Assembly (NCBI GenBank): GCA_022822005.1
Contig: JAJECO010000067.1
Location: 1 to 64,000, forward strand
DNA from: Candidatus Poribacteria bacterium
Lineage (GTDB): Bacteria; Poribacteria; WGA-4E; PCPOR2b
Direction: 5' to 3'
DNA length: 64,000 bases
In this document: piece by piece, positions 9,814 to 61,016 of the stretch
How positions within the stretch are numbered: position 1 is the stretch's first letter
How the letters are laid out: the number at the start of each line of letters is the position of its first letter
Program-made: the position numbers and the translations under genes
Notes under the pieces: model-generated
Databases searched by the model: none
What the model was told of the DNA's origin: nothing
The model's input: only the letters and a program-made list of their open reading frames with translations

Positions 9814-9822
9814 CTGCCAGTG

Positions 9823-9935
9823 GCTCATGTAAAAACGGAGTGCAATTACGGCGAAAGTGCTAAGGGCGGGGCAAGATGCCCCGCCTACGATTTTTGAGGC
9901 AAGTCGGTGCTGTTGGACTAATTCTTTATATGAGC
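9823..9935. repeat. MITE-like repeat, family B, copy 1 (diverged)
   Basis: The element begins GCTCATGTAAAAAC and ends TTATATGAGC, an imperfect terminal inverted repeat. Its centre is the palindrome GGCGGGGCAAGATGCCCCGCC. Two nearly identical copies of the same family lie at 53158-53269 and 58460-58571. This copy has diverged outside the core and ends, and sits between lnt and prfB. Confidence 0.72.
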
Positions 9936-10032
9936 GTTGCCAGTACACGGACATAGCAGGTGGATCAATTCAAAACAGCGCACCATGCGTCAACAAATAT
10001 ATCTTTACGTAAGACCAGGAAGGAAATATACA

Positions 10033-50988: not shown

Positions 50989-52056
50989 ATGTCAGATAAA
51001 CTTAAGATCGGCATTATCGGCACAGGAATCATCGGTAAAAGCCATGTGCGTGGTTATCAATCCATGCTCAACGATGTCGAGATCATCGCAGTCGCAGACC
51101 TCGACGAATCTGAAGCACGGCGGGTCGCGCAGGAGTACGATATTCCGCACGTTTTTTCCGACTATCGCGACCTGCTGAAAATTGACGAAATTGATAGCGT
51201 AGATGTCTGCCTGCCTAACTTCCTGCACGCCCCAGTTACAATTGCGGCACTCGAAGCGGGAAAGCATGTCTACTGTGAAAAGCCGATGGCAAAAACCGGT
51301 CCAGAAGCGATCGCGATGTACGAAGCCGCACAGAGAACGGGGAAAAAGTTGTCAGTGCAAATGGCAACCGTCTTTACCAAAGAAACACAGATAGCCAAAC
51401 ACCTGATTAAAGCGGATGCCCTTGGCAACGTTTACTATGTCAAGACAAGCCACTATCGCCGTCGTGGACGTCCTTATGTTGATGGTTATGCCACTCCCCA
51501 TTTTGTTCAACGGGAGAAAGCTGGGGGCGGCACACTGTTGGATACCGCCATCTATAATATGGCGCGGATGGTTTATCTGCTCGATAATCCCGAAATCGAA
51601 ACTGTGAGTGCGTCCACCTTTCAAGAACTTGACATGGACGAAGAACGCCGACAGAACAGCGGTTATGATGTTGAAGAACTCGGCACCGGATTCGTCCGTT
51701 TTAAGGGGGGGATCACGATGTTTGTGGAGGAGGCGTGGGCTGCTAACATGGACGGCGGTGACGGAGATCGGATTATGGGTTCAAAGGGCGGAATCAAGCT
51801 CAATCCCTTTACCTTTTACACCGACCTCTACGACATGGATGCGGATGTGACCTTCGATATCGACGCCTATGAAAGGCGAATGCGCTCCCTCGGATACACG
51901 GGAGATGGCTACGAGAGCTCACAGCAGCATGTTGTCTGGAGCTTGCTGGAACGTGTTGAGATGATTGATACGGGTGCAATCGGTCTGACCGTCGCTCGTA
52001 TTACGGAAGCGATGTATCAATCTGCCGAACAGCAGAAAGAGGTGGATTTTAGATAG
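50989..52056 (+). CDS. Gfo/Idh/MocA family oxidoreductase
   Basis: A 355-residue NAD(P)-dependent dehydrogenase. It has KIGIIGTGIIGKSHVRGYQ, the EKP motif in CEKPMAKTG, and a C-terminal domain with AGGGTLLDTAIYNMARMVYLLDNPEIETV, which supplies a substrate-site Asp. AGGAG lies seven bases before the ATG. phnX follows after 34 bases, so the two are probably cotranscribed and may act on the same compound. Confidence 0.9.
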   Translation: MSDKLKIGIIGTGIIGKSHVRGYQSMLNDVEIIAVADLDESEARRVAQEYDIPHVFSDYRDLLKIDEIDSVDVCLPNFLHAPVTIAALEAGKHVYCEKPMAKTGPEAIAMYEAAQRTGKKLSVQMATVFTKETQIAKHLIKADALGNVYYVKTSHYRRRGRPYVDGYATPHFVQREKAGGGTLLDTAIYNMARMVYLLDNPEIETVSASTFQELDMDEERRQNSGYDVEELGTGFVRFKGGITMFVEEAWAANMDGGDGDRIMGSKGGIKLNPFTFYTDLYDMDADVTFDIDAYERRMRSLGYTGDGYESSQQHVVWSLLERVEMIDTGAIGLTVARITEAMYQSAEQQKEVDFR

Positions 52057-52090
52057 CAACAATTTTTCAACCTTATGGAGAGATTACACA

Positions 52091-52930
52091 TTGACACAAT
52101 CTGACTATACCTATCAGCGAACCTATCGCGGTTCATTAAAGGCAGTAATTTTAGACTGGGCGGGAACGACTATGGATTATGGGTGCTACGCACCCGCCGT
52201 AGTATTCGTTGAAGTCTACAACCGCAAGAACGTCCCAATCACCATCGAAGAAGCGCGTATCCCGATGGGCGCACATAAAAAGGTCCACATTCGGAAGATT
52301 TCGCAGATCGAACCGGTGGCACAGCGATGGCAGGAGGCGCATGGTCGTAATCCTAACGAAGACGATGTTGAAGCGATGTTCCAAGAGTTTATTCCGCTTC
52401 AGTTGGCTTGCCTCGCAGACTACGCGGATCTGATTCCCGGCACGTTAGAAGCGGTTGCCGAGTTCCGGAGTCGCGGGCTGAAAATTGGTTCCACTACTGG
52501 ATACTTGCGTGAAATGATGGAGCTTCTATTCAAAGAGGCGGGAGCTCGCGGCTACACACCGGACTCGACGGTTTGCGCGAGTGACGTGCCTGAGGGTCGT
52601 CCTGAACCGTGGATGTGCCTGCAAAACGCGATGAACTTGGGCATCTATCCGATGGAGTCGATTGTGAAGGTTGGGGATACCTTGCCAGACATCGAAGAAG
52701 GACTCAACGCCGGCATGTGGACCGTTGGTCTCGCTAAGACCGGCAATGAAATTGGGCTCAACGAACAGGAGATCGCAGACCTTCCCCAAGATGTGCAGGA
52801 AACGAAGTTAGCAGAAGCGTATAAGCGGATGTATCAGACGGGCGCACATTATGTGGTGGATGGGATATGGGATGTGCCGCCAATTCTCGATTTGATCGAT
52901 GAACGGTTACGGCGGGGTGAACGACCGTAA
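52091..52930 (+). CDS. phnX: Phosphonoacetaldehyde hydrolase
   Basis: A 279-residue HAD-superfamily phosphonatase that splits phosphonoacetaldehyde into acetaldehyde and phosphate. The nucleophile is Asp22 in ILDWAGTTMDYG. The Schiff-base Lys aligns with Lys63 in PMGAHKKVHIRK, with His66 beside it. Core motifs are KIGSTTGYLREMM, SDVPEGRPEPWM and KVGDTLPDIEEGLNAGMWTVG. The start is a TTG, the first usable codon after GGAGAG (52078). The aminotransferase PhnW, which normally makes the substrate from 2-aminoethylphosphonate, is not adjacent. Confidence 0.93.
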   Translation: MTQSDYTYQRTYRGSLKAVILDWAGTTMDYGCYAPAVVFVEVYNRKNVPITIEEARIPMGAHKKVHIRKISQIEPVAQRWQEAHGRNPNEDDVEAMFQEFIPLQLACLADYADLIPGTLEAVAEFRSRGLKIGSTTGYLREMMELLFKEAGARGYTPDSTVCASDVPEGRPEPWMCLQNAMNLGIYPMESIVKVGDTLPDIEEGLNAGMWTVGLAKTGNEIGLNEQEIADLPQDVQETKLAEAYKRMYQTGAHYVVDGIWDVPPILDLIDERLRRGERP

Positions 52931-52990
52931 GGGATATTAGATCAGAAAAAGAGGTGAGACACGCCAAATTGAACCGCATTGCCCTTAGAC

Positions 52991-53103
52991 CCGGTAGGTG
53001 CGGTTTCTAACCGCACCGCATCGGCGCGTCCCGACAGGTCGGGAACAGCGCCCACCAAATGGGAGAACGGGTTGAAACGGCGCAGTTGGAAACAGCGCCT
53101 ACC
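52991..53103. repeat. Palindromic repeat, family A, copy 2
   Basis: It contains GGTGCGGTTTCTAACCGCACC and ends with the same GAAACAGCGCCTACC terminus as the copy at 7201-7255. It has extra internal sequence that includes a GTCCCGACAGGTCGGGAAC hairpin (about 53028). The flanking sequence (to about 53150) is also related to that following copy 1, so a longer unit is shared. Confidence 0.7.
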
Positions 53104-53157
53104 AAACACGGGGGCGAAAGTGTCTATCTGTTTTTATGGTTCACTATAAAAAGGAGA

Positions 53158-53269
53158 CTCATGTTAAGAGTGAGTGCAACAGAAACTAAGTTTTTGGCAC
53201 GAGCGGGCGGGGCAAGATGCCCCGCCTACGGTTTCTTTGGGTATTTTGCACTTTCTTTTTACATGAGCC
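53158..53269. repeat. MITE-like repeat, family B, copy 2
   Basis: A 112-bp unit starting CTCATGTTAAGA and ending TTTTTACATGAGCC. The core is the palindrome GGCGGGGCAAGATGCCCCGCC. It is identical to 58460-58571 except at one base. It lies between phnX and the next Gfo/Idh gene. Confidence 0.88.
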
Positions 53270-53276
53270 TAAAAGG

Positions 53277-53300
53277 GTTGTGGATTTGTCAATCCACAAC
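53277..53300. repeat. Hairpin repeat, family F, copy 2
   Basis: The hairpin has arms GTTGTGGATT and AATCCACAAC around TGTC. The same hairpin is at 59933-59956, and a variant is at 22249-22272. Shared flanking bases (CGAGC...TTAACA) show that the repeat unit is longer than the hairpin. Confidence 0.7.
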
Positions 53301-53394
53301 GAGCAGGTCCATTAACATTTATCTAACACTGTACTAGCAACTTGGGTAAGGGCAGTAACTCAGCCGGACTCATTTTAGGTTAGGAGCGCAGATT

Positions 53395-54438
53395 ATGAGC
53401 AACGCAACCTATCGGGCGGGAATTATCGGGCTCGGTTTCATCGGCGGGGCAGACCAAGTTTCAGGGGACGCCCTCGGTCAACGTGTCCCTGACCTCGACG
53501 GCACACACTTCGCCTCTTTGTCCAACCATCCCCGTGTGGATCTGGTTGCCGGAAGCAGCCGCGATCCCGGACGGCGAGAACGCTTTGCCCAACGCGCAGG
53601 TGCAGTGACCTATGCGGATTGGAACGAGATGCTGGATAAGGAGCCCCTTGACATTGTGAGCGTAGCAACATATGCGCCGGTCCATGCAGAACCCACCGTC
53701 GCGTGTGCAGAAAAGGGGGTTCGCGCTATCTACTGTGAGAAACCTATAGCAACGCGACTCTCGGATGCGGAGCGGATGATTGAAGCATGTGCCGAAGCGG
53801 GTGCGCTGCTGGTCCTCAACCACCAAAGACGGTTCAACCTCAACCACCGCCGGCTGCGAGAGCTTATCGCTGGGGGCGGCTTAGGTGACCTGACCTCCGG
53901 GTTGTTGCAGTGGGGATCTGGTAGATTGGGGAACGTCGGCACCCACATGATTGACGCACTCCTGATGCTGACCGGCAGAAAAATTGAGGCGGTGTCTGGC
54001 ACCCTGGATCTCGCTGGCAAACCCGACTGTAGAGGACCTGCATTTCGTGACCCCGGCGGTTGGGGGGTCCTAAAATTAGGGGGCGGGATTATGGTTACCG
54101 TAGATGCGGGGGACTACGCCGCAGTTCCGGGACAAATCACCCTCAACGGCACTGAGGGGCGCGCTATCTCCGATGGCAGCAGCATCACCCTTGAATATTG
54201 GGATGGTCGTCGAGACCATTGGGACAGTGCAAACGGTGGTGTATCGGGAATGGACCGGGCTGTTTCCGAGATCGTGACGTGGCTTGATGACGGAAGCGAA
54301 TTTCCGTATCCCGCCTCCGAAGCGTTCGATACGCTGGAAGCCATTGTGGGTTTTCACGCTTCACACGCCCGGAATGCGGCGTGGACAGAACTTCCATTGT
54401 CAGGCGCAGACCGTGATCGCGAAGTCCTCAGTGGATAA
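53395..54438 (+). CDS. Gfo/Idh/MocA family oxidoreductase
   Basis: A 347-residue dehydrogenase. The nucleotide-binding motif is YRAGIIGLGFIGGADQVSGD, followed by an inserted loop before the second strand. The EKP motif is in CEKPIATRL and the Arg-rich LNHQRRFNLNHRRLRELI helix follows. TTAGGAGCG precedes the ATG. It lies 44 bases before the ABC importer binding-protein gene, suggesting that it processes an imported compound. Confidence 0.9.
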   Translation: MSNATYRAGIIGLGFIGGADQVSGDALGQRVPDLDGTHFASLSNHPRVDLVAGSSRDPGRRERFAQRAGAVTYADWNEMLDKEPLDIVSVATYAPVHAEPTVACAEKGVRAIYCEKPIATRLSDAERMIEACAEAGALLVLNHQRRFNLNHRRLRELIAGGGLGDLTSGLLQWGSGRLGNVGTHMIDALLMLTGRKIEAVSGTLDLAGKPDCRGPAFRDPGGWGVLKLGGGIMVTVDAGDYAAVPGQITLNGTEGRAISDGSSITLEYWDGRRDHWDSANGGVSGMDRAVSEIVTWLDDGSEFPYPASEAFDTLEAIVGFHASHARNAAWTELPLSGADRDREVLSG

Positions 54439-54482
54439 TAACACAAGAGATAATCCTAAACCTGTAACAGCGCGAAGAATAC

Positions 54483-56582
54483 ATGAAGCGTATAGCAGCG
54501 AAATGCCGAGAGATCATATGTTTCTTCATCTGTGTCGCGATTGCCGTAGCTGCTTGTCGTGGAGACATGACTGACACTTCCGCTGACAGTAGCGCTCAGA
54601 GCGCAGCAGAAGTAGTCGAAGCTGCTGGTTCGACGGAATCTCATGTGGCGCCTGCAATTCCGTCCCCCTTAAACCGGGTAAAGGGCTTAAACACAAGCGG
54701 TGCATTGGCATCGGATCCCATTTCAGTTCGCAGCCAGAAGTATCCGGTACCCCCTACCTACAACGAAGTGCCTTTCTTCGCCGACTTAGTTGCTGCCGGT
54801 AAATTACCGCCGATCTCCGAGCGCATCCCCGTAGAACCATTCGTCGTGGGACCTGGGGTGCTGAACTCCGAGAAATGGCTTGATTGGGAAGTTGGTCGTT
54901 ACGGTGGTACTATCCGCACTACCAACCTCAACGGCTCTATGCACGAAGTGGCGCTGGCAATGGGTATGACGATTCTCAGGGCACCCGATCAGAGTACCAA
55001 AGACCCGCTTCCCGCTATTGTGAGCAGCTACGAGATTAGTCCGGACTTCACCCGATACACACTGACCATCCGCGAAGGTATCAAATGGTCTGATGGCGTA
55101 CCGGTTACCACCGAAGATGTGCGCATGACCTTTGAACTTTACGGTGACGAGCGAATTTATCCAACCTTCCCTATCAAAGCCAGAACGTTGGGGCGTGCCG
55201 ATGGCATCCCCGGAAAAGTCACTATCATTGATGATCTGACTTTCACAATCACGTTTGATGCCCCTTATGGTCAATTCTTGGCGGAACTGTCCTCTTGGAT
55301 TCCAGACTATACTTTACTCTTCAGGCCCGCCCATTTCATTAAACAGTTCCATGCGGATTATACGGATATGGCAAAGATTCAACCGGTCCTTGACGCGTTG
55401 GAGATTAGGACGTGGGAAGATCTTGTCATTCTCAAGGACATGCGCCACTGGGAATTATACCGCGAACATGGCGTTGGCGTTCCTTCATTGACTCCGTGGA
55501 TAGCTGAGGAGGTCAACAGTTCGGTGGTCAGGGCAGTTCGTAACCCGTACTACTGGAAGGTCGATATCTCCGGCAATCAACTTCCCTACATCGACCGGGT
55601 CGAGGCGGAAGTCTCAAACCAACTCCAGTCTATCATTCTGAAAGCGGCTGCCGGGGAATATGATGTGGTTACCTCTTTTGCGCAGATCAGGGAGATGCCT
55701 CTCTATCGGGAAAATGCAGCGCGTTCCAACATTAGGACGGTGCTCCACGGCTCAATTAACAACCCACCGATACTGTTCCTCAATCACGACTACGACTATG
55801 AAACTGAGGGCAGTGTCTGGCAGCAACTTGTATCCGATCCCCGTTTCGGCAGTGCAATAGCCAGCGCAATTGATAAGGAGGACGTGAACAACACGCTCTA
55901 CTTCGGTCATTACACGCTCGATGGCTTCACCAAGGAAACCTTTGACGCCGACGCGTCTAACACGCTGCTCGACGAGATTGGCATGACCGAACGCGACGCT
56001 GACGGTTTCCGAACCGATCCGCGCGGTGAACGTTTCGAGTTGACAATTACCACCGCTGAAGTCTCGCCCGATTTTCTCGGTTTGGGCGAACTCTTAAAGA
56101 ACTACTTTGAGAACGTAGGGATTCGGACCACCCTTGACGTGATTGGCAGTTCGCTGTTTGGTCAACGGATGAACGGCAACGAGCTAATGGCTACTATCCA
56201 TTGGAGCGACGAACCTATCTGGGCACCCGGAATTTCCGAGGACTATTGGCCCGGATTTAAGGGTCACTGGGCACCGATGTCAGAGATGTACTTCAATACA
56301 AACGGTGAATCTGGACGGAAACCCCCGCCTTACTTGCAGGAGTTTTTCGATCTGCACGTGGCTCGGAAGGTTGTTCCGCCCCAGTCGGAAGCAGGGGAAG
56401 CACTTTACGCGGATCTTGTGGATTGGTTCTCGCAACACTATGTCACTATTTGGCCCGTGGGTAGGATGACAGTCCCCAGCGTGTACAATGCTGACTTAGG
56501 CAATGTGATTAAAGATGGCTATCCTTTTGACCGTGCCTTGGATTACGGTATGGAGCAGCTTTTCTTTAAAACGCCGCAATAA
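54483..56582 (+). CDS. ABC transporter substrate-binding lipoprotein (family 5)
   Basis: A 699-residue periplasmic solute-binding lipoprotein. The lipobox (AVAAC, Cys25) follows a hydrophobic signal. The family 5 (peptide/nickel/dipeptide) fold is seen in LPAIVSSYEISPDFTRYTLTIREGIKWSDGVPVTTEDVRMTFELY, AVRNPYYWKVDISGNQLPYIDRV and a C-terminal domain. It is longer than typical OppA (about 540). The excess is partly an N-terminal segment (about 26-120) and partly internal. Two permeases and two ATPases follow, so it supplies a peptide-like or other bulky solute. Confidence 0.88.
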   Translation: MKRIAAKCREIICFFICVAIAVAACRGDMTDTSADSSAQSAAEVVEAAGSTESHVAPAIPSPLNRVKGLNTSGALASDPISVRSQKYPVPPTYNEVPFFADLVAAGKLPPISERIPVEPFVVGPGVLNSEKWLDWEVGRYGGTIRTTNLNGSMHEVALAMGMTILRAPDQSTKDPLPAIVSSYEISPDFTRYTLTIREGIKWSDGVPVTTEDVRMTFELYGDERIYPTFPIKARTLGRADGIPGKVTIIDDLTFTITFDAPYGQFLAELSSWIPDYTLLFRPAHFIKQFHADYTDMAKIQPVLDALEIRTWEDLVILKDMRHWELYREHGVGVPSLTPWIAEEVNSSVVRAVRNPYYWKVDISGNQLPYIDRVEAEVSNQLQSIILKAAAGEYDVVTSFAQIREMPLYRENAARSNIRTVLHGSINNPPILFLNHDYDYETEGSVWQQLVSDPRFGSAIASAIDKEDVNNTLYFGHYTLDGFTKETFDADASNTLLDEIGMTERDADGFRTDPRGERFELTITTAEVSPDFLGLGELLKNYFENVGIRTTLDVIGSSLFGQRMNGNELMATIHWSDEPIWAPGISEDYWPGFKGHWAPMSEMYFNTNGESGRKPPPYLQEFFDLHVARKVVPPQSEAGEALYADLVDWFSQHYVTIWPVGRMTVPSVYNADLGNVIKDGYPFDRALDYGMEQLFFKTPQ

Positions 56583-56959
56583 TCAGCGTTCACTCATGAG
56601 GGAGAGTGTAGGTGCTGCTAGCCCTCATGTGCCTTGTGTGTAATTCGCCGATAAATATCTAATATAGGGGTGAAGTACCGATGCTCAACGGGTTGATGCT
56701 TAGTTTGCACATGTCGCCCCGCTGGGGCTTGCGTGTCTCTGTGATATCCATATTCTATAAACATGCCGCCCCGCTGGGGCTTTGGTGATACATTGGCACA
56801 TTGAAGAGTTGGGCTTCGTAGGTCACACTTAACCCAATTCTGTCCAGTCCGATCCACGAGGATTCCCGAAGAGTCTTCCATCTGCGCGTTGTCACATATC
56901 AACATGCTGTAGTCAACTGCTCATACCAACAGTTCTGACTTAGCAAGGACATCAGACCT
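56583..56959. repeat. Repeat-filled spacer, family C copies 1 and 2
   Basis: The spacer between the binding protein and the first permease contains two copies of a REP-like unit, CATGTCGCCCCGCTGGGGCT, at about 56709-56730 and (with one change) 56760-56781. The core GCCCCGCTGGGGC forms a hairpin. No gene is visible. Confidence 0.7.
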
Positions 56960-57958
56960 ATGAGAGCGTTTATCGTGCGCCGGCTTATACTCATTATTCC
57001 TCTGCTTTTTCTGATCTCTGTTATCTCTTTTACTACGATCCTACTACCACCCGGAAGTTATGTGGAGACCTATGTGCAAAATCTCGAACGCACCGGGTTC
57101 ATAATGGATCAGGGGCAAATTGAGGCAATTTATAGGCAGTACGGTCTTGATCAACCTGCGGTGCTGCAGTACGTCCTGTGGATGAGCAATTTTCTCCTGA
57201 AGGGCGAAATGGGGAGATCCTTTATCTACCAACGCCCGGTGAAGGACGTTATTTTGGAGCGGCTGCCGATGTCGGCAACTATCGCAATAGTTTCTTTGGC
57301 GGTTACTTGGTTGATAGCTATCCCCATCGGCATTTATTCCGCGCTAAGACAATATTCGGTCGGGGATTATGTCGCCACGATCATCGGTTTTGTTGGGCTC
57401 GCTTTACCGAATTTTCTGCTGGCGTTGGCAATCGGGTATTGGGTATTTTCCAGCACGGGACGGGCGATTACGGGTCTTTTTTCTATAGAGTACAAGGGGG
57501 CGCCTTGGTCTATTGGCAAATTCGTTGATCTACTGAGGAATATTTGGCTGCCCATCGTGGTCATTGCCAGTGCCGGCACCGCATCGCTCATCCGCATTCT
57601 TCGCGCGACCCTGCTTGACGAAAAAAACAAACAGTACGTTACCACCGCGCGGGCGAAAGGGTTGCCGGAACGGCGACTGATTATAAAGTATCCGGTCCGG
57701 GTCGCGATCAATCCGCTCATTAGTACCATCGGCTGGACGTTGCCGTTTATCGTCAGTGGCGAGATCATTGTCTCTCAAACGCTGGGCTTGGAAACGCTTG
57801 GACCGGTACTCTTGGCGGCGGCTTTGGGGGAGGATATGTTCTTGGTGGGTAGCATCGTGATGATTTTGAGCAGTCTCACGGTTGTGGGCACCCTGTTTTC
57901 GGATATTCTGCTGGCATGGTTGGATCCGCGCATCCGCTTTGAGAGGATTGGGGCGTAG
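56960..57958 (+). CDS. Oligopeptide-type ABC permease (OppB-like)
   Basis: A 332-residue permease with six predicted helices. It opens RAFIVRRLILIIPLLFLISVISFTTILLPPG. The ATPase-coupling EAA-like loop is TTARAKGLPERRLIIKYPVRVAINPLIS. The C-terminal GEIIVSQTLGLETLGPVLLAAALGEDMFLV is family-typical. It is the first permease of the importer and is separated from its partner genes by repeats. Confidence 0.92.
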   Translation: MRAFIVRRLILIIPLLFLISVISFTTILLPPGSYVETYVQNLERTGFIMDQGQIEAIYRQYGLDQPAVLQYVLWMSNFLLKGEMGRSFIYQRPVKDVILERLPMSATIAIVSLAVTWLIAIPIGIYSALRQYSVGDYVATIIGFVGLALPNFLLALAIGYWVFSSTGRAITGLFSIEYKGAPWSIGKFVDLLRNIWLPIVVIASAGTASLIRILRATLLDEKNKQYVTTARAKGLPERRLIIKYPVRVAINPLISTIGWTLPFIVSGEIIVSQTLGLETLGPVLLAAALGEDMFLVGSIVMILSSLTVVGTLFSDILLAWLDPRIRFERIGA

Positions 57959-58630
57959 ATAAGCCGCGTCCCGATAAATTGGGATTCAAAGCAGCTGGGA
58001 CTGTGTTGGTTCATTTGTTCATGGGTTCATTAGTTCATCAGTTCATGGGTTCATTAAACTCTATGGGTATATCGCACCTCTGGGGCAAAAGATGCACATG
58101 TCGCCCCACCGAGGCTATGTTGATTCATTAGTTCATTAGTTAATTGAGGGTTGTGCATGATAATTGTCTGAATCAGGATTTAAGGATTTTTAGGATATAA
58201 ATCGGAACGTGAAATGGGACTATTTTAGGACGGGACAGGATGCATTTAGCCCCAGAGGGGCGACATGTGCCATTTGTCTGAATCGCAGATTGCACGGATG
58301 ATTCCCCCCATTTCATCGGGAGGATTAGCATTGAAAATCGCGCATTGAGACTAGGTTCTGTTGACATTTCATCGCAGCCAGATAACAGGGAGACATAAAG
58401 CGGTTCACTGACGTAAGACCCCAGAAAAGAAACCGAGTTTTGAAGAAAAAACTCGGTGACTCATGTTAAGAATGAGTGCAACAGAAACTAAGTTTTTGGC
58501 ACGAGCGGGCGGGGCAAGATGCCCCGCCTACGGTTTCTTTGGGTATTTTGCACTTTCTTTTTACATGAGCCAACTCGGTTTCAGGGCAAATCATTTTACC
58601 CAAAATGACTTTTCAAACAGGCTCTAAGAT
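57959..58630. repeat. 672-base spacer of mixed repeats
   Basis: No gene is visible. In order it holds a CCCGATAAATTGGG hairpin (57969-57982), a tandem GTTCATTAGTTCAT-type tract (58009-58060 and again near 58126), two family C units in opposite orientations (58094-58116 and 58248-58271) and a family B element (58460-58571). Sequences on either side of the family B copy match each other (GAAACCGAGTTTT and AACTCGGTTTC), suggesting that it lies within an older inverted repeat. Confidence 0.7.
58460..58571. repeat. MITE-like repeat, family B, copy 3
   Basis: A 112-bp unit in the same orientation as, and with one base difference from, 53158-53269. It ends 60 bases before the second permease gene. 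Near identity implies recent transposition or gene conversion. Confidence 0.88.
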
Positions 58631-59809
58631 ATGAACCGAAAAATACCACACTCATTTTTTTCAGGGATTACCTCTAGCTACCTCAGATGGAGAGAAACCC
58701 GTGCGAAGAAAATTCAGGAAAGTTTGTACTACGCCTCCCAACGCAAATTGGTGTGGCACGCTTTCAAAAAGCATAAACTTGCCCGCATCTCGCTTGTGGC
58801 CCTGGCTATACTCTATTTTGTCTCAATTTTTGCGGACTTCTTTGCCCCTTTTGGTCCGCTTGAACGATTTAAGGATTTCAATGACGCGCCACCCACCGGT
58901 ATACACCTTATCAATGCAGATGGAAAGTTAGGTCGTCCCTGTGTCTATGAGACAAAGAGGGAGTTAAACACCGATACTTTTAAGTATGAATATTCCGAGG
59001 ATCTGTCAAGGTCACATATTATACGCATCTTTGTGAAAACAGAACCGTATAAATTGTTGGGCATTATTCCGATGCAGCACAAACTGTTTGGTCTTGAGAA
59101 TCGACAGGTGCCGCTGTTGCTGTTTGGATCGGATCGGTTGGGTCGAGATGTCTTCTCCAGAATCCTCTATGCCGGTCGCATCTCGCTGTTTATCGGTTTC
59201 GGAGGCGTTGCGGTCGCTTTCATCTTAGGCAGCATCTTAGGGGGTATCTCCGGCTATTACGGTGGTGTGGTCGATGAGGCCATTCAACGCGTCATTGAGG
59301 TGTTGATCAGTGTGCCCGATATCCCGATCTGGATTGCTCTGTCCGCTGCGCTTCCCCGCGATTGGGGAACGATTAACATTTACTTAGCGATCACCTTGAT
59401 CTTGTCCATTCGAGGTTGGACAGGCTTAGCACGTGTGGTTCGGGGCAGAATTATTAGTTTGCGCGAGGAAGAATTCGCATTGGCAGCCAAAGCTGCCGGA
59501 GCCAGCGATAGACGTATCATCTTCAAACATTTGTTACCGGCTTTTAGCAGCTATCTGATCGTACATATAACGCTGGCGATACCCGGTATGATTTTGGGTG
59601 AAACCGCTCTCAGTTTCTTGGGACTTGGCATCAGACCGCCGGCGGTAAGCTGGGGCACTCTACTACAGGAGGCACAGGACGTGAATGTTCTTGCTAATTT
59701 CCCTTGGATGCTCATTCCAGCACTTTTTGTTGTGGGAGCGATTCTGATGTTCAACTTTGTCGGCGATGGTTTGCGCGATGCAGCCGATCCGTATACTTCG
59801 TCGAGATAG
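58631..59809 (+). CDS. Oligopeptide-type ABC permease (OppC-like)
   Basis: A 392-residue permease. It has an N-terminal cytoplasmic segment, one helix (ISLVALAILYFVSIFADFFAPFGP) and a long periplasmic insert of about 100 residues. The conserved LFGSDRLGRDVFSRILYAGRISLFIG leads into the five-helix core. The coupling loop is LAAKAAGASDRRIIFKHLLPAFSSYL, and ETALSFLGLGIRPPAVSWGTLLQEA is a family signature. The periplasmic insert is as in longer OppC homologues. It pairs with the upstream OppB-like permease. Confidence 0.92.
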   Translation: MNRKIPHSFFSGITSSYLRWRETRAKKIQESLYYASQRKLVWHAFKKHKLARISLVALAILYFVSIFADFFAPFGPLERFKDFNDAPPTGIHLINADGKLGRPCVYETKRELNTDTFKYEYSEDLSRSHIIRIFVKTEPYKLLGIIPMQHKLFGLENRQVPLLLFGSDRLGRDVFSRILYAGRISLFIGFGGVAVAFILGSILGGISGYYGGVVDEAIQRVIEVLISVPDIPIWIALSAALPRDWGTINIYLAITLILSIRGWTGLARVVRGRIISLREEEFALAAKAAGASDRRIIFKHLLPAFSSYLIVHITLAIPGMILGETALSFLGLGIRPPAVSWGTLLQEAQDVNVLANFPWMLIPALFVVGAILMFNFVGDGLRDAADPYTSSR

Positions 59810-59895
59810 TGAGTTCAAAACGTAGTAATCCCTAGTGCTCTGTCAAGTAAATTATGACAAGTCACTCCCTGCTCGGCTCCGTTCCGAGAGTCCGA

Positions 59896-59956
59896 GACTT
59901 GGATAGACATATCCAAGCCCGACTTGCGGGGGTGTTGTGGATTTGTCAATCCACAA
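59896..59956. repeat. Double-hairpin repeat, family F, copy 3
   Basis: ACTTGGATAGACATATCCAAG (shown by its arms CTTGGATA and TATCCAAG) at 59898-59917 is followed by GTTGTGGATT..AATCCACAAC at 59933-59956. The pair and their order match 22211-22272. It lies between the second permease and the first ATPase gene. Confidence 0.7.
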
Positions 59957-59999
59957 CGAGCTAGGGTATTAACAATTATCTGACTGTGTATTAGTGCCT

Positions 60000-61016
60000 A
60001 TGTCTAAAGATAACGCTGAAGATATCATTCTGGAAATTAAGAACTTGAAAACCCACTTCACGCTGGATACGGGCATAATCCGCGCAGTCGATGGGGTGAA
60101 TTTAACGATTTCGCGAGGCAAAACCTTGGGGGTGATCGGTGAAAGCGGTTGTGGCAAGTCCGTCACAGCTCATTCGATTCTGAGGCTTACCCCGTCGCCG
60201 CCCGGCGAGATTGTCGATGGCGAAATCCTGCTGCACCGAGATGGCGAGGTTATCGACATCACCAAACTCAAGCCCACAGCAGAAGCGATGCGGAATATTC
60301 GGGGTGACGACATCGGCATGATTTTTCAGGAACCGATGACCTCGTTTGGTCCCTTACATACAATTGGGGATCAGATTATGGAGACGATTCTGATCCATCA
60401 GAAGGCAGCCGACAAGGGTGAGGCAAGAGGCCAAGCGATAGAACTTTTACGCCAAGTGGGCATTCCTAACCCGGAGCAACGCATTGACGCCTACCCGCAT
60501 GAATTTAGCGGTGGCATGCGTCAACGAGCGATGATTGCGATGGCGCTCTGCTGTTCGCCCACCCTCCTGATTGCTGATGAACCGACCACTTCATTAGATG
60601 TCACGATTGAAGCACAGATTCTGGAACTGTTGACTGACCTTCAAGCAGAAACAGGTATGGCGATCATGCTCATCTCGCACAATCTGGCGGTCGTTTCTGA
60701 AATGGCGGATGATATTGCGGTCATGTACCTTGGCAAACGGGTTGAGTTTGGCACCACCGATGCGATTTTTGATAATCCGTTGCACCCTTACACCCAAGGG
60801 TTATGGCGGTCGATCCCCAGCGTGGACGGTCCACTTGAAAAACTTGTGCCGATTCCAGGCGTTGTTCCCAGTCCAAGGGATCTACCGCCGGGTTGTGTTT
60901 TTGCCCCCCGTTGCTCAGAGTTTATGCCCGGCGTATGCGATCAACTGAAACCTGTCCCGGTTATTGAGGCGGAACCAGATCATTTTGTTGCATGTTATCT
61001 TTATGATAATGAGTGA
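60000..61016 (+). CDS. Oligopeptide-type ABC ATPase (OppD-like)
   Basis: A 338-residue ATPase. Walker A is GESGCGKSVTAHS, the Q-loop is MIFQEPMTSFGPLHTIGDQI, the signature is FSGGMRQRAMIAMAL and Walker B is LLIADEPTTSLDVT. The C-terminal oligopeptide extension has FAPRCSEFMPGVCDQLKPVP, whose Cys residues can bind an iron-sulfur cluster in some homologues. ATG at 60000 is preferred to an ATG six bases upstream by similarity only; no strong ribosome-binding site is seen. Confidence 0.92.
   Translation: MSKDNAEDIILEIKNLKTHFTLDTGIIRAVDGVNLTISRGKTLGVIGESGCGKSVTAHSILRLTPSPPGEIVDGEILLHRDGEVIDITKLKPTAEAMRNIRGDDIGMIFQEPMTSFGPLHTIGDQIMETILIHQKAADKGEARGQAIELLRQVGIPNPEQRIDAYPHEFSGGMRQRAMIAMALCCSPTLLIADEPTTSLDVTIEAQILELLTDLQAETGMAIMLISHNLAVVSEMADDIAVMYLGKRVEFGTTDAIFDNPLHPYTQGLWRSIPSVDGPLEKLVPIPGVVPSPRDLPPGCVFAPRCSEFMPGVCDQLKPVPVIEAEPDHFVACYLYDNE

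Follow-up and report, generated by a model that had tools for sequence, protein, structure and literature searches.

Miniature inverted-repeat elements with IS1595-type ends and a REP core on both sides of importer genes in a Candidatus Poribacteria genome

The two copies and their surroundings

The window analysed here is a stretch of 64,000 bp from contig JAJECO010000067.1 of a Candidatus Poribacteria bacterium (assembly GCA_022822005.1), whose draft genome comprises 6.0 Mb in 97 contigs and is 97.8% complete. In this window, two copies of a short intergenic element enclose the genes encoding a Gfo/Idh/MocA oxidoreductase, a family-5 solute-binding protein and OppB; the OppC gene starts 59 bp past copy 2. 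The copies lie in direct orientation, start 5302 bp apart and differ solely at element position 15 (G at 53170, A at 58472). The initial annotation had described them as two 112-bp copies; their location, direct orientation and single difference stand, and the ends have been corrected from the TSDs, which gives 114 bp each (Table 1). The inverted termini reported there (CTCATGT/ACATGAG) are real and longer than stated, forming imperfect terminal inverted repeats (TIRs) of about 23 bp. No plausible ORF was found in either copy, and the earlier description of the copies as mobile, non-coding elements with a palindromic core is supported.

Table 1. Positions of the elements, their REP cores and the associated target and host repeats in the window
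Feature	Coordinates	Strand	Remarks
MITE, third and diverged	9822..9936	-	type II (REP reversed relative to the ends); L050; flanking 8-mers 7/8
MITE copy 1	53156..53269	+	type I, REP core; between HAD-like hydrolase gene and Gfo/Idh/MocA gene
GTAG-type REP hairpin (GTAGGCGGGGCATCTTGCCCCGCC) in copy 1	53206..53229	-	exact copies flank RAYT gene in G000:C54
Dispersed repeat entered by copy 2	left 58350..58457, right 58572..58630	+	genomic matches stop at the MITE
Left TSD of copy 2 (AACTCGGT)	58450..58457	+	8 bp
MITE copy 2	58458..58571	+	type I, REP core; inside oppB-oppC spacer
Same REP hairpin in copy 2	58508..58531	-	sequence match
Right TSD of copy 2 (AACTCGGT)	58572..58579	+	8 bp

Copy 2 is bounded on both sides by AACTCGGT, a TSD perfect over 8 bp; the 8-mers flanking copy 1 are imperfect (AAAAAGGA and TAAAAGGG, 6/8). 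An empty homologous target of copy 2 is present elsewhere in the same genome (G000:C75; 80 bp, 92.5%, ungapped over the junction). In the oppB-oppC spacer, copy 2 is nested within the palindrome of a different dispersed repeat, and the many genomic matches to this repeat (query positions 951-1058 and 1173-1231) end at the MITE edges. Other dispersed repeats, each with many genomic copies, lie in the same spacers at 58140-58457, 53277-53337, 59934-59994 and 52955-53150.

About 680 bases separate the aligned parts of oppB and oppC in this genome; the corresponding gap is about 242 in sister genome G007, 69 in G008, 110 in G004 and 153 in G005. Upstream of the Gfo gene, the gap measures about 450 bases, compared with 151 in G007 and 90 in G004. 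No such element was seen in the sister spacers of G007, G008 and G004, which were read by eye. For G006, no place was found where both sides of these loci occur together; for G005 and G008, the part upstream of the Gfo locus could not be located beside the Gfo gene. Homologous recombination between the copies could possibly delete the importer genes, as the initial annotation proposed; in the sister genomes examined, the flanking and enclosed genes are present in the same order.

A family of elements with IS1595-type ends

The copies belong to a family of dozens of elements, where the initial annotation had counted two. A search of the genome with copy 1 DNA gave at least 63 matches (40 of the 199 candidates scored), most of which cover just a portion of the element, for example the core. 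When up to 3 mismatches are allowed, the TIR pattern occurs 168 times in the whole genome, against 24 times for the reversed control pattern; with up to 1 mismatch it occurs 68 times, against 0. At this stricter threshold, five other genomes of the genus have 66 to 165 matches (control 0 to 1), so that the family is present in all six genomes of the genus searched, and three genomes from other genera of the family-level lineage have 1 to 10 (control 0). These matches count ends and not elements, which suggests some tens of elements per genome. Of 84 genomes from the phylum, only 5, which belong to a single genus, have full or partial matches at E<=1e-15. Within the window, the pattern with up to 3 mismatches occurs six times, against 0.51 +/- 0.76 in shuffled sequences; two of these matches are the ends of the third element, absent from the initial annotation, which lies between genes that we take to be lnt and prfB from their resemblance.

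Pairing of TIR ends 40-400 bp apart in the retrieved loci gave 45 candidate elements, for which the 8-mers starting one base beyond each TIR were compared. These 8-mers agree at 0.725 of positions, against a mean of 0.316 and a maximum of 0.381 in 200 shuffles; 15 of the 45 candidates match at fewer than 5 of 8 positions, and in some of them the TIRs have clearly been paired by chance. The copies are thus short, non-coding and bounded by terminal inverted repeats; the family is multicopy and dispersed; and a TSD of constant length (8 bp) is found for the family, copy 1 itself showing just 6/8. These are the features of a MITE.

Both copies are very probably MITEs derived from an insertion sequence (IS) of the IS1595 family. 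Their ends of about 23 bp are those of a clade of IS1595-family ISs found in Poribacteria, Chloroflexi, Cyanobacteria and Acidobacteria, and are thus shared with ISs that encode a transposase of this family. Hallmarks of IS1595 are seen in the MITEs themselves, namely the 8-bp TSD and a terminal GG, which stands at the right end of both copies, the left end having GA. Transposases whose ends match, which the initial annotation had named as a point to check, are indeed present in related genomes. At L065, in another genus of the family, the same end lies beside an IS1595-family ORF, whose product scores 93.1 against the NCBIfam model transpos_IS1595 (cut-off 75). A search for PF12762 over nine genomes revealed two ISs of about 985 bp in sister species (L094 and L098) in which an IS1595 transposase is enclosed by the two end types of the MITE, GCTCATGTTAAGATTTAGTGCAA and GCTCATGTAAAAACAGAGTGCAT. 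Both are decayed, with a split ORF plus further damage, and they are the nearest ISs with these ends within the genus.

Close relatives of the transposase were located at 69 loci when named genomes were scanned. TIR-like ends (up to 3 mismatches) are present on the 5' side at 35 of the 54 loci with enough sequence, on the 3' side at 47 of 61, and on both sides at 24 of 46; the reversed control pattern gave 0 and 0. Five of the 69 loci have a TSD matching at 8/8 (L144, L146, L148, L149 and L153). In the alignment, the left end of the MITE is closest to the 3' ends of the ISs (..TTAAGA..) and its right end to their 5' ends (..AAAAA..). Other IS1595 matches (L090, L091, L092 and L097) were set aside, having other ends or none of the MITE type.

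The transposase ORF is split at one place, at the tract GGGGGAAAAAAGG, in 18 of the 22 loci with a split frame (L143-L146, L148-L152, L154, L157, L162, L163, L165-L167, L179 and L181), as sorted by a crude rule under which 49 of the 69 loci could be sorted. Perfect 8-bp TSDs occur among them at L144, L146, L148 and L149. In most in-frame copies the tract is broken; as exceptions, L126 and L178 were sorted as in frame with similar tracts, and L168 as split without the tract. From its sequence, the tract looks like a programmed recoding site, using ribosomal frameshift or transcriptional slippage of +1 or -2. By analogy, recoding of the split ORF looks as if it would yield a short DNA-binding product. 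In IS1, recoding yields a short DNA-binding product.

A protein search for an intact cognate transposase in the present genome (97.8% complete) gave no match; PF12762 is represented there by a fragment of 77 aa only, without such ends, and no large autonomous IS was found among the loci retrieved around TIR matches. Current mobility is therefore doubtful, or would rely on sequence missing from the assembly. At two loci with an ORF near a TIR-like site (L063 and L078), the genes are by eye oxidoreductase-like and regulator-like, and not transposases.

The REP core and the variable interiors

The core of both copies is an independent REP, which the initial annotation overlooked. It is a hairpin ended by GTAG, of high copy number (71 copies of GTAGGCGGGGCATCTTGCCCCGCC in the genome at up to 2 mismatches, against 0 for the control), and in G000:C54, in the same genome, exact copies flank a gene for a REP-associated tyrosine transposase (RAYT). 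This gene scores 125 bits against the NCBIfam model REP_Tyr_transpos (cut-off 80). Within the RAYT ORF itself (L100, G000:C54), variant REP copies at 1755-1779 and 1794-1818 are in frame and encode a repeated GQDAPPTG peptide.

The context of the best 30 of the 71 REP copies was sorted by rule: ten are in the present MITE family (one of them, L221, mixed) and one is beside a half element; three are inside MITEs of a second family, family B, and five beside a half element of it; and 11 are elsewhere, including two beside the RAYT gene. Family B (L025, L028, L029, L206 and others) has the TIR AGGACTTACGCA and a 5-bp TSD, which matches at 0.81 of positions in 18 candidates, against 0.31 in shuffles; it holds the same REP plus CCCGATAAATCGGG palindromes. 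A further family, C (TAGGGTCATTTA), has only four candidates.

The interiors of the present family vary, with the REP in either orientation, a AAACCGAGTTTT hairpin, or arrays of other palindromes. Among the 30 of 45 candidates whose TSDs match at 5/8 or better, nine have the exact REP core, two have one-base variants of it (L054 and L076), and the rest have other sequences. Interiors fold with z below -2 in 26 of the 29 elements with enough interior, against 3 of 58 flanks of equal length, and in 17 of the 20 without the exact REP; because the elements are related, these counts lack independence, and the flank controls may include some coding sequence.

The REP of type I elements is oriented opposite to that of type II relative to the ends, which implies that the REP was gained at least twice or was inverted. 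Elements with the type I REP form are present in this genome (G000) and in the sister genomes G007 (94%) and G004 (90%), at sites that differ between them. Because this REP-bearing form stands at different sites in three species, we infer that an ancestral MITE acquired the REP, which would now be carried as part of the element; the REP may have been placed there by RAYT or captured as the MITE formed.

Origin of the copies and relation to known systems

We propose that an IS1595-type transposase would bind the GGCTCATGT..GTGCAA ends in trans and, once bound, would make a staggered 8-bp cut and insert the element there. The MITE interior is not derived from the IS; in copies 1 and 2 it contains a GTAG-type REP, which is part of the separate RAYT/REP system of the same genome. 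Tentatively, and with less confidence than for the ends, we further suggest that the interiors may be exchangeable palindromic cargo held in constant IS1595-type ends, with REPs hitchhiking on DDE elements besides their mobilization by RAYT. The REP is common to the second MITE family with its 5-bp TSD and, if the interiors are truly exchangeable, REPs would spread by DDE hitchhiking. Hairpins may be favoured as interiors because, when extruded, they would bring the element ends into synapsis; an element of about 100 bp is shorter than the persistence length of DNA. The elements are probably selfish, and the strong hairpins that they form may influence transcriptional read-through within the opp operon.

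The single difference in 114 bp fits recent transposition, as the initial annotation held for the spread of the element; the imperfect TSD of copy 1 (6/8) does not fit so well. It is conceivable, if rather doubtful, that the copies are near-identical through gene conversion between older insertions. Such conversion would accommodate an imperfect TSD beside so little divergence, as well as the unusual second base A (GACTCATG) that both copies have in common, but copy 2 has a perfect TSD, and neither copy was seen in the sister spacers read. A purely functional role of the copies, as RNAs or terminators retained at the junctions of operons, is improbable. The copies do fold strongly on both strands (z -5.8 to -7.0), and at each of the two sites the REP is predicted to be terminator-like; yet terminator-like sites are not commoner in the region (5) than in shuffles (5.6), an Rfam scan of 52000-60000 gave no match at E<=5, and the insertion signature and the lack of such an element in the sister spacers read speak against this role.

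That direct repeats of a mobile element bracket the Gfo, solute-binding protein and OppB genes recalls the ends of a composite transposon that moved the enclosed genes, a very improbable reading that was rejected because the outer flanks AAAAAGGA and AACTCGGT differ, leaving no TSD around the whole segment, and the gene order is the same in the sister genomes. An assembly duplication, which the initial annotation had named as a possible refutation and which near identity, the 5.3 kb spacing and a draft genome might suggest, is hardly credible, given that the shared stretch ends at 117 bp (so that the copies are not a segmental duplication), one base, the flanks and the target sites differ, and relatives exist elsewhere in this genome and in others, including copies 90-94% identical at other places in sister species.

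Insertion of MITEs with IS1595-type ends gives a concrete origin, in an identified IS family, for repeat-rich intergenic DNA of an uncultivated phylum. This DNA is layered, with REPs nested inside MITEs and MITEs nested in other repeats. If the interiors are truly exchanged, short bacterial repeats would be modular, and REP counts could not be read as RAYT activity alone. In addition, the spacers with copies, longer than those measured in the sisters, offer a natural test of the effect of hairpins on operon expression.

Our literature search found no Poribacteria paper on miniature inverted-repeat elements, nothing that pairs ISXO2-like with non-autonomous elements, and, among the papers listed, nothing relevant on small dispersed repeats; the main text of a review of prokaryotic MITEs contains neither 'IS1595' nor 'nested'. 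Elements of this kind are already known. IS1595 elements produce 8-bp TSDs and are related to Merlin elements with terminal GG (part of PMC8101967), and the present MITEs resemble this ISXO2-like, Merlin-related family in both traits. The same ends bracket an NF033547/PF12762 transposase in related loci; unlike the ISs, the copies described here have no transposase gene and an interior of unrelated DNA.

GTAG REPs and RAYTs are known from several phyla, including the PVC group (part of PMC3733652). The present REP is likewise a short GTAG-ended hairpin whose exact copies bracket a RAYT gene, and it differs from the REPs described in that part of the source in being carried by two or more MITE families that are unlike in TSD length. 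MITEPye1 of Paracoccus yeei also combines ends of a known IS family with a strong hairpin fold, but it is attributed to IS1182 and has 1-3 chromosomal copies (part of PMC11578231). A precedent for a REP within a MITE is QMITE2 of Coxiella burnetii, a 150-190 bp element with a GTAG REP inside it, for which repeats of 7-11 nt are reported and whose REP is a target for IS1111 (part of PMC5896051). Compared with QMITE2 as portrayed in that part of the source, the present family has an 8-bp TSD, an identified cognate IS family, and interiors that vary between unrelated hairpins. What is less usual in these elements is that the ends stay constant while the hairpin interiors differ, with one such interior common to two MITE families.
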